Shown piece after piece: positions 1 through 1,468 of a stretch of DNA of 64,000 nucleotides (positions within the stretch are counted from its first letter, which is position 1; every line of letters starts with the position of its first letter). The notes beneath the pieces were generated by a model, which was given only the letters and a program-made list of their open reading frames with translations, searched no databases and had not been told where the DNA came from. This stretch comes from Cupriavidus respiraculi (GTDB lineage Bacteria > Pseudomonadota > Gammaproteobacteria > Burkholderiales > Burkholderiaceae), in contig NZ_CAJZAH010000002.1 of NCBI RefSeq assembly GCF_914271545.1, positions 1,518,459 to 1,582,458 of the forward strand, read 5' to 3'. A program made the position numbers and the translations under genes.

Positions 1-1161
1 CACCTCCTCGGCGATGCGGTTGTAGTAGGCGCGCATCAGGTCGTGATAGCGCGGATCGTCCAGCAGGAAGGCATCGTGTCCGTGCGGCGCGTCGATCTCC
101 GCGTAGCTGACCGGGCGCTTGTTGTCGAGCAGCGCCTTGACCAGCTCGCGGCTGCGGCTGGGGGCGAAGCGCCAGTCGGTGGTGAAGCTGGCCACCAGGA
201 AGCTCGCGCGGGTCTGGGCCACCGCGCGCGTCAGGTCGCCGCCAAAGGCCAGCGCGGGATCGAAGTAGTCCAGCGCGCGGGTGATCAGCAGGTAGGTGTT
301 CGCGTCGAAGTACTCCGCGAACTTGTCGCCCTGGTAGCGCAGATAGCTCTCGACCTGGAACTCGACGTCGAACGAGAAGCGGATGTCCTCGGTCTTGAGC
401 GTGCGGCCGAATTTCTCCGCCATGTCCTCGTCGGACAGATAGGTGATGTGGCCGATCATGCGGGCCACGCGCAGGCCGCGCTTGGGCTTGACGTTGTGCG
501 CGTAGTAGTTGCCGCCGTGAAAGTCCGGGTCCGACAGGATGGCGCTGCGGGCCACCTCGTTGAAGGCGATGTTCTGCGCCGACAGCTTGGGCGTGGACGC
601 CACCACGATGCAGTGGCGCAGCCGGTCCGGGTACATCAGGCTCCAGGCCAGCGCCTGCATGCCGCCGAGGCTGCCGCCCATCACCGCGGCGAACTGCGCG
701 ATGCCGAAGGCGTCGGCCACGCGCGCCTGCGCGTTGACCCAGTCCTCCACCGTGACCACCGGAAACGCGGCGCCGAAGGGCTGCCCGGTGGCCGGATTGA
801 GGCTCATCGGCCCGGTCGAGCCGAAGCACGAGCCGAGGTTATTCACGCCGATCACGAAGAAGCGGTCGGTATCGAGCGGCTTGCCCGGACCGACCATGTT
901 GTCCCACCAGCCGAGCTCGCCGCCCTCGGCGTAGATGCCGGCGACATGGTGGGAGGCGTTCAGCGCGTGGCAGACCAGCACGGCATTGCTGCGGTCGGCG
1001 TTCAGCGTGCCGTAGGTCTCGACCATCAGGTCGTACCCGGCGAGGGAAGAGCCGTTGCGCAGCGGCAGCGGCTCGGCGAAATGCATGCGCCGCGGCGCGA
1101 CGATGCCGACCGAGTCGGGCGGCAGGTCCAGCGCGGCGGGCGGCGAAGCAACGTCAGTCAT
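1..1161 (-). CDS. metX: Homoserine O-acyltransferase MetX (3' end outside window)
   Basis: First committed step of methionine synthesis: acyl transfer from acyl-CoA to homoserine in the cytoplasm. An alpha/beta-hydrolase fold of 387 codons is visible before the window edge, close to full family length. The nucleophile elbow GGSLGGMQ places Ser164, with Asp329 (TTDWRF) and His362 (HGHDAF) completing the triad. In beta-proteobacteria members of this family are often annotated as succinyl- rather than acetyltransferases (MetXS); the sequence alone does not settle the acyl donor for me. ATG at 1161 gives the N-terminus MTDVAS usual for Cupriavidus-type homologues, but no Shine-Dalgarno precedes it. 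The same frame stays open upstream through the leader. metW is the expected next gene, beyond the edge. Confidence 0.93.
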
Positions 1162-1210: not shown

Positions 1211-1259
1211 GAAAAAACCCGACCGGCATTTGCGTGTGTCCACGCAGCCAAATCGGGTT
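1211..1259 (-). terminator. Intrinsic terminator/attenuator in the metX leader
   Basis: Reading the minus strand, AACCCGA (1259-1253) pairs with TCGGGTT (1222-1216), with an inner TGCGTG/CACGCA stem and a run of six T at 1217-1212. It lies between the promoter and the metX start, about 80 nt after the aptamer, so it fits premature termination control rather than the end of a gene. Confidence 0.8.
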
Positions 1260-1340
1260 GTTCACGCGAGCCGGTTCGTTCTTCCGTTCCTCGCCGCGCG
1301 CCGCCGCCTGTGCCGAAAATTCGGGGATGGGCGCCGACCA

Positions 1341-1430
1341 CCTCTTTAGCCGCATTTATAGTGGCAGCCGGCGATCCCTCCAGGAGTCTCCGCTGCCGCG
1401 CGCCCGCAAGCCAGTCATCAAATCGGCGCG
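1341..1430 (-). ncRNA. SAM-II (SAM-alpha) type riboswitch ahead of metX
   Basis: On the minus strand, P1 is CGCGCC (1430-1425) with a GGCGCG partner near 1404-1399. The loop begins GATTTGA and carries GGCTTGC (1412-1406), and the 3' conserved block reads ATAAATGCGGCTAAAGAGG (1359-1341). These blocks match the SAM-II consensus as I know it. Between P1 and the 3' block sits an additional hairpin (GGCAGC 1397-1392 with GCTGCC 1368-1363) that the minimal fold lacks. A TATAAT box lies immediately upstream and a terminator downstream, in front of a methionine gene. Ligand binding is inferred, not shown. Confidence 0.8.
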
Positions 1431-1438
1431 ACCGGCAG

Positions 1439-1468
1439 ATTATAGTGCAAAGCGGCGCACCGCCGCCA
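1439..1468 (-). promoter_or_regulatory. Promoter of the metX leader
   Basis: Perfect -10 hexamer TATAAT at 1444-1439 on the minus strand; a weak -35 (TGGCGG, 1468-1463) sits 18 nt upstream. The predicted start near 1432 coincides with the first base pairs of the SAM-II aptamer, which supports both calls. Confidence 0.65.

Follow-up and report, generated by a model that had tools for sequence, protein, structure and literature searches.

Upstream of metX, on the minus strand of the 64,000-nt stretch of Cupriavidus respiraculi DNA analysed here (the window), lies a leader for which an initial annotation proposed a SAM-II riboswitch with an extra internal hairpin, acting through a terminator. 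The locus raises the question of whether the leader belongs to the SAM-II class, what the additional hairpin represents, and how the terminator might be coupled to the ligand.

Organization of the metX leader

Inspection of the sequence places the leader at 1444-1212 of the minus strand, where a −10 box, a SAM-II core, a 35-nt hairpin and an intrinsic terminator follow one another. TATAAT, the SAM-II blocks, the hairpin at 1397-1363 and the terminator all lie where the initial annotation had positioned them:

1439..1444, minus strand: −10 box TATAAT (from sequence; a locus of the same genus, L008, also has TATAAT 5′ of P1)
1425..1430, minus strand: P1 5′ strand CGCGCC (sequence and RF00521 match)
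1405..1424, minus strand: loop 1, GAUUUGA and GCUUGC blocks, 5′ strands of pseudoknot P2 (near-invariant among relatives)
1399..1404, minus strand: P1 3′ strand GGCGCG (sequence, RF00521 match and covariation)
1363..1397, minus strand: inserted P3-like hairpin, 35 nt, stem base GGCAGC/GCUGCC (fold and compensatory changes)
1341..1359, minus strand: 3′ block AUAAAUGCGGCUAAAGAGG (= AUAAAUGCGGCUAAAG, ATAAATGCGGCTAAAGAGG), loop 3 and P2 3′ strands (near-invariant; P2 pairs counted on compact relatives)
1345..1355, minus strand: proposed antiterminator 5′ strand AUGCGGCUAAA (partner of 1252-1242 when transcripts of 190-200 nt are folded)
1242..1252, minus strand: proposed antiterminator 3′ strand UUUGGCUGCGU, within the terminator 5′ arm (arm-pairing tests and folds)
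1212..1259, minus strand: intrinsic terminator hairpin and U-run (AACCCG...CGGGTT, −25.6 kcal/mol, then a T run)
1..1161, minus strand, ATG at 1161: metX, homoserine O-succinyltransferase type (NF047916.1 MetX_succinyl; continues beyond the window start)

In DNA letters, loop 1 of the window reads GATTTGA from 1424, followed by GGCTTGC. The terminator begins 81 nt past the 3′ block (1359-1341), essentially the 80 nt originally given. The metX product scores 680.1 bits against NCBIfam NF047916.1 MetX_succinyl (cut-off 560), and the leader is flanked on its other side by slmA (NCBIfam NF007015.0, 292.6 bits against a cut-off of 120; frame end at 1505). No good −35 hexamer was seen by eye upstream of TATAAT. 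From the position of the −10 box, transcription is expected to start at about 1432, just 5′ of P1. SAM-II RNAs have been described with a start site just 5′ of P1 and a methionine or SAM gene downstream (Corbino et al., 2005; PMC1273637), the arrangement found here with the inferred start just before P1 and metX downstream.

A 511-aa open frame on the minus strand (1-1533) spans the whole leader in phase with metX, which could be taken to mean that the leader is coding, from 1533 through into metX. We consider this very improbable. Both the −10 box and the terminator fall inside the frame, and the hairpin lengths among relatives vary by single bases (19, 20, 28, 29, 30, 31, 33 nt and others) between near-identical flanking RNA blocks; a coding leader was rejected because these lengths are not multiples of three. 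The open frame is probably a chance effect of high GC.

Relationship to SAM-II and metXZ

A scan of the 64-kb window with Rfam release 15 at gathering scores returned no family over threshold. When the leader was searched permissively, RF00521 (SAM_alpha) came out as the top match, at 19.8 bits (E 0.028) against a cut-off of 36 bits and over the P1 half only, so that the Rfam covariance-model check suggested in the initial annotation went against its proposal at the curated threshold. The same search gave no match at E≤10 to SAM-II long loops (RF01726) or to SAM_V, which we take to be RF01826. Among 40 genomes the Rfam model matched seven, and a pattern search supplied six loci; in all of these the blocks are either compact, with a 3-nt linker from P1 to AxAAAU, or split by a hairpin. 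The low score of the leader is thus explained by the SAM-II blocks being split by a hairpin, as seen in relatives. The 36-bit gathering cut-off is a search rule, and it is exceeded by compact relatives that precede the same genes, among them leaders whose downstream gene was checked as metZ (L001, L056) or metX (L051, L052, L054, L067).

Two covariance models were built, R1 from 14 sequences of such relatives, the window among them, and R2 from 43 compact hairpin-less elements, none from the window's family or genus or from the hairpin forms. Applied to both strands of the 64-kb window, the held-out model R2 ranked the two halves of the leader first (E 1.9e-7) and second (2.9e-4), with the third match at 0.11; in a whole-genome run, in which 22 candidates were scored, the leader was the sole match listed (E 5.3e-6). 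A dedicated R1 search of the same genome recovered the leader (E 1.6e-15) together with a second copy, which lies before metK (E 1.3e-6). Comparison with relatives and the R2 ranking therefore bear out the SAM-II core. P1 is not seen in the minimum-energy fold of the leader, a method that cannot model a pseudoknot, and ligand-free nearest-neighbour folds form only 0-2.6 of its 6 pairs. The outer P2 helix of the window has about 3 bp, counted by eye.

Covariation in P1 and the pseudoknot, to which the initial annotation had appealed, is present in part. Of the pair cells in the 43 compact elements, 95.1% are standard, and both sides differ in 34; none of 500 shuffles attained either value. These two-sided changes fall in three pairs, a count that 34 of the 500 shuffles did reach. 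Seven of the 11 pairs never vary (five P1 pairs and the inner P2 pairs 28-54 and 29-53), and it is thus the outer pairs of P1 and P2 that carry the covariation support. P2 pair 22-61 is paired in 41/43 compact elements; 21-62 is changed on both sides in 9/43 and unpaired in 11/43. For P1, covariation is supported by the outer pair and by copies before other genes: among 142 distinct elements that include these copies, inner pairs change together from GC to UA in nine and from CG to UA in seven, and the outer pair is non-standard in 31. The P1 types in this set include GCGCC/GGCGC, GCGUC/GACGC, UCGCC/GGCGA, UUGCC/GGCAA and ACGCC/GGCGU, from a typing in which three P1 strands were misparsed and one element was left out. 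GAUUUGA opens loop 1 in 140/167 elements and GCUAAAG is present in 161/167; some loci entered this set twice, from two collections, and element counts are therefore not organism counts. In the SAM-II crystal structure, the GAUUU...UUGC and GCUAAA blocks reportedly form the ligand pocket.

The window leader is almost surely the metXZ element of Leyn et al. (2014; PMC4239095), described from 35 beta-proteobacterial genomes as a pseudoknot with a terminator but not linked there to SAM-II. Genes and lineage are the same (6/6 genomes of the Ralstonia group), as are the pseudoknot, between regions 1-4 and 2-6, and the terminator; the leader has what defines metXZ, being a leader of metXW/metZ type in beta-proteobacteria with pseudoknot and terminator. 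It differs from the published description in two respects: region 3, left without a partner there, here appears to be the P2 strand, and the terminators, called non-conserved in sequence, here share CCCG in their 5′ arms.

It could be held that metXZ is a separate element, merely SAM-II-like, that senses, e.g., SAH or a protein. The SAM_alpha scan of Leyn et al. (2014) was positive only in Rhizobiales and Rhodobacterales, and metXZ was described as new; the Rfam SAM-II model stays below threshold at the leader; and metK-type copies carry GAGUU instead of GAUUU. Against this, compact metX/metZ elements of the same order share the blocks of the window, some of them over the Rfam SAM-II cut-off, and loop 1 and GCUAAAG are almost unchanged across relatives. 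We regard a separate element as quite improbable. With RF00521 the leader has in common P1, P2, the loop-1 and GCUAAAG blocks, a methionine gene, a −10 box 5′ of P1 and a terminator; it differs in the 35-nt hairpin between P1 and loop 3 and in its score (19.8 against 36 bits). Judged by these blocks, the metX leader is a genuine SAM-II-type leader, a structural variant within the known class, called a variant because it has a P3-like hairpin that is reported to be absent from SAM-II (Huang and Lilley, 2018; PMC6061858).

At E≤0.001, R1 matches all 60 genomes of the genus, with a span of 80-123 nt in 59; the remaining genome, 54% complete, has only a 79-nt match. The models scored a limited number of candidates per genome (the metK copy of the window's own genome appeared only in the dedicated search), and genome counts are therefore lower bounds: across the order, R1 matches at least 223 of 300 genomes and RF00521 at least 136, 51 of them over the cut-off, and R2 matches at least 55 of 249 genomes of the phylum, several weakly. 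For the window's family, RF00521 has matches in 0/9 sampled genomes at E≤0.001 and R1 in 6/9, two of the 14 R1 training sequences having come from these genomes. A pattern scan of named genomes that requires the insert found 51 loci (26 titled Cupriavidus, 4 Oxalobacter and 2 Ralstonia, the remainder being mostly beta-proteobacteria). With a gap of at most 45 nt, the pattern search did not list the genome of the window, where the insert exceeds that limit. SAM-II has been reported as commonest in Alpha-, Beta- and Gammaproteobacteria (PMC2704228, 2009), and earlier in a few other proteobacteria, with Bordetella bronchiseptica in a figure legend and terminators noted (Corbino et al., 2005); SAM-II long loops were described from Bacteroidetes and marine samples (PMC2864571).

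Downstream of 130/167 elements lies metX or metZ; other downstream genes are metK, metH and an ABC ATPase nearest to MetN. The SAM-II-like element before metK in the window's own genome lies outside the window (G000:C2:1506976-1507054, minus strand; L157:8977-9055) and has GAGUUAA in place of GAUUUGA; the metK scores 604.3 bits with TIGR01034, and a search for a terminator after this copy found none. Similar copies precede metK in L102, L103, L156, L162 and L163, and in L099 with GAUUUAA, and L069 has a GAUUUGA-type element and a terminator before metK. In the beta-proteobacteria, metK was listed as having no known regulator (Leyn et al., 2014). Within the genus, copies before metZ (L155, L158, L159, L160, L161 and L164) have a GCGUC/GACGC P1, and most of their loop 3 is replaced by a hairpin of 12-85 nt. 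Elements also precede metH-like genes (L004, L053, L059, L065, L106, L114, L122 and L137; the gene tested, in L053, is a metH fragment below the whole-protein cut-off) and, in L101, the ABC ATPase nearest to MetN, itself a match below the cut-off. Records L107 and L114 are labelled as metagenome-assembled genomes of Alistipes senegalensis and Bordetella parapertussis, respectively; the Alistipes label looks wrong, since the element is of beta-proteobacterial type and accompanied by metX.

Ten of 99 sources have tandem leaders, in which the first element usually has a terminator; the paired SAM-II-like elements lie about 100-170 nt apart (L006, L007, L044, L046, L050, L063, L070, L075, L076 and L097). 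A small ORF of 95-114 aa starting MFDC or MYDC follows the tandems of L050, L063, L070, L075, L076, L097 and probably L044, and those of L063 and L070 matched no NCBIfam family at E≤0.001. Tandem SAM-II was set aside as a novelty, 44 cases having been published (PMC9481103).

The inserted hairpin

The additional 35-nt hairpin between P1 and the 3′ block, as initially annotated, is borne out by comparison with relatives. Its predicted folding energy in the window is −19.5 kcal/mol, with a modest z of −1.65. Among 167 parsed elements, 48 have 3 nt separating P1 from the 3′ block and 110 (85 distinct) have at least 12 nt, totals that include at least four misparsed rows (L075, L077, L089 and L096) and omit one 14.5-bit element of L135. 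Relative to shuffles, the 85 distinct inserts of at least 12 nt have a mean folding z of −2.4, and 80% lie below −1.5.

The covariation set comprised 41 distinct inserts of the Cupriavidus/Ralstonia type, 19 to about 62 nt long, with stem pairs numbered from the ends. Pairing at positions 3, 4, 7 and 8 exceeds that of shuffled letters (1, 11, 1 and 0 of 1000 shuffles as high, respectively), the signal is weaker at pairs 5 and 6 (87 and 52 of 1000), and pairs 1 and 2, lacking statistical power, are uninformative. The swaps include CG to GC and AU to GC. The excess of pairing and the compensatory swaps imply that a stem persists despite turnover in both sequence and length.

That the hairpin is a neutral spacer, without effect on the switch, is a reading we lean against only slightly. 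The length of the segment varies from 0-3 to 85 nt without sequence conservation, the order contains a mixture of compact and hairpin forms, and L009 and L081 have a longer loop 1 as well. On the other side, the hairpin follows P1 directly in 40/40 aligned Cupriavidus/Ralstonia-type metX leaders, its stem is maintained by compensatory changes, and an element of hairpin length is present in 59/60 genomes of the genus.

The nearest structural parallel is SAM-V, an H-type SAM pseudoknot in which the P3 stem-loop comes directly after the P1 3′ strand (Huang and Lilley, 2018), a likeness in which position only was compared. The window leader differs from SAM-V in having no SAM_V match, a longer hairpin, and a terminator instead of ribosome-site masking. 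By analogy with P3, which follows P1 in SAM-V, we think it most likely that the hairpin is stacked on the outer end of P1, outside the ligand pocket; that it serves stability or folding rate is our guess. The joint reading, that metXZ is SAM-II and that the Cupriavidus/Ralstonia aptamer has a selected SAM-V-type P3 stacked on P1 that tunes a kinetic choice between antiterminator and terminator, is put forward tentatively, at nearly even odds; were it true, the structural line between SAM-II and SAM-V (P3 absent or present) would fail.

Terminator and candidate antiterminator

A terminator was found after 138/167 elements and after 123/130 of those linked to metX or metZ, the search finding none after the other seven. 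CCCG occurs in the terminator 5′ arm of 94% of 103 distinct leaders; among 123 unrelated terminators drawn from the same DNA, the figure is 19%. The attenuation layout of the initial annotation, with a terminator before metX, thus holds; its suggestion that this is atypical for SAM-II does not, since many or most SAM-II RNAs of alpha- and beta-Proteobacteria are reported to have terminators or to be transcriptional (Corbino et al., 2005; Barrick and Breaker, 2007; Huang and Lilley, 2018). Direct masking of the ribosome site is argued against by the distance of about 180 nt between the 3′ block and the metX start, which is too great for it.

In the window, the arm UUUGGCUGCGU (1252-1242) can form 11 bp with AUGCGGCUAAA (1355-1345) of the 3′ block. 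This match ranks 2 of 124, one of 123 background arms pairing equally well or better, and the arm has 13.1 expected pairs with the 3′ block compared with 1.6 for shuffled arms. In folds of the growing transcript, the pairing appears with 8-12 expected pairs at lengths of 190-200 nt and has been lost by 220 nt, when the terminator forms. If the SAM-bound state is imitated by enforcing P1 and keeping the 3′ block unpaired, the terminator forms, the antiterminator being excluded by construction; at full length, the terminator forms both with and without this mimic. As the terminator is the more stable at full length, the choice must be kinetic and made during RNA synthesis.

Over the 103 leaders, the mean number of expected pairs between arm and 3′ block is 7.3, against 4.2 for shuffled arms; in 48 leaders the value exceeds that of at least 90% of their 30 shuffles. 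At least four expected pairs with the 3′ block are seen in 66 leaders, and shuffled arms average that many in 54. By the same measure, for which the partner classes can overlap, the arm pairs with the 5′ end of the aptamer in 28/103 leaders, including about ten Cupriavidus metX leaders as well as the metZ copies of Cupriavidus, and with GCUUGCGGGC in two (L009 and L100); eight have no listed partner. An antiterminator match at p<0.05 is found for 32 of 99 distinct arms, 23 of them from closely related Cupriavidus leaders. The antiterminator geometry is not uniform among relatives. An antiterminator through GCUUGCGGGC (Leyn regions 3-4), which L009 and L100 would fit, was rejected as not enriched (2/99 distinct arms), and an arrangement resembling the alternative fold of Leyn et al. 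(2014), in which the 5′ half is paired to the 3′ block, is not favoured in the fold of the window (at most 0.2 expected pairs).

The terminator 5′ arm also partly copies the aptamer's own 5′ strand in L155 and L158-L161, and in the window at 1257-1250; CCGAUUUG is present in both the aptamer 5′ strand and the terminator 5′ arm of the window. From these sequences it looks as if the arm had evolved by mimicry of the aptamer 5′ strand.

From the folds, the 11-bp pairing of arm and 3′ block is a plausible antiterminator. We infer that plentiful SAM would bind the pseudoknot and hold GCUAAAG of the 3′ block in P2; with the 3′ block locked in P2, the terminator would fold and metX would be off. Under SAM shortage, the 3′ block (1355-1345) would instead be free to capture the emerging terminator 5′ arm (1252-1242), and with this antiterminator formed transcription would proceed into metX. 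On this modelling, the leader is most likely an OFF switch that ends transcription early when SAM is plentiful.

A SAM-II aptamer with a constitutive terminator, control lying elsewhere, e.g. in RNA stability or translation, appears rather unlikely to us. It would accord with the full-length fold, which yields the terminator in either state, with the differing antiterminator geometry among relatives, and with Sinorhizobium meliloti metA, where the terminator after the SAM-II aptamer is not predicted to be SAM-responsive (Scheuer et al., 2022; PMC9373788). The 11-bp match of the window (rank 2 of 124) and the arm pairing above shuffles on average (n = 103) speak against it. A parallel for termination on ligand binding is S. 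meliloti metZ, where a terminator 3′ of SAM-II is predicted to form on SAM binding and an RNA of about 100 nt is more abundant in high-SAM medium; that system is alpha-proteobacterial, and an inserted hairpin is not mentioned in the passages cited (Scheuer et al., 2022). According to the same authors, effects of SAM-II on gene expression had been unstudied before their work. Taking core, layout and relatives together, we consider it likely that the leader is a SAM-II riboswitch variant that controls metX through transcription attenuation.

The element itself (metXZ; Leyn et al., 2014) and the transcriptional mode of most SAM-II RNAs were already known. In a limited search of the open-licence PMC literature, we came across no paper in which metXZ is identified as SAM-II or a SAM-II RNA is given a P3 hairpin; within that search, the SAM-II identity of metXZ, the P3-like hairpin, this candidate antiterminator and the putative metH and metK copies appear to be new. 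The analysis would join the orphan element metXZ to a known riboswitch class, shows why the curated RF00521 model misses SAM-II in the window's family, and describes a SAM-II core that bears a SAM-V-like hairpin. It offers a candidate antiterminator for SAM-II that is open to experiment, and SAM-II-like leaders on metK may supply a regulator for a gene that, in the account of Leyn et al. (2014), had none known in beta-proteobacteria.
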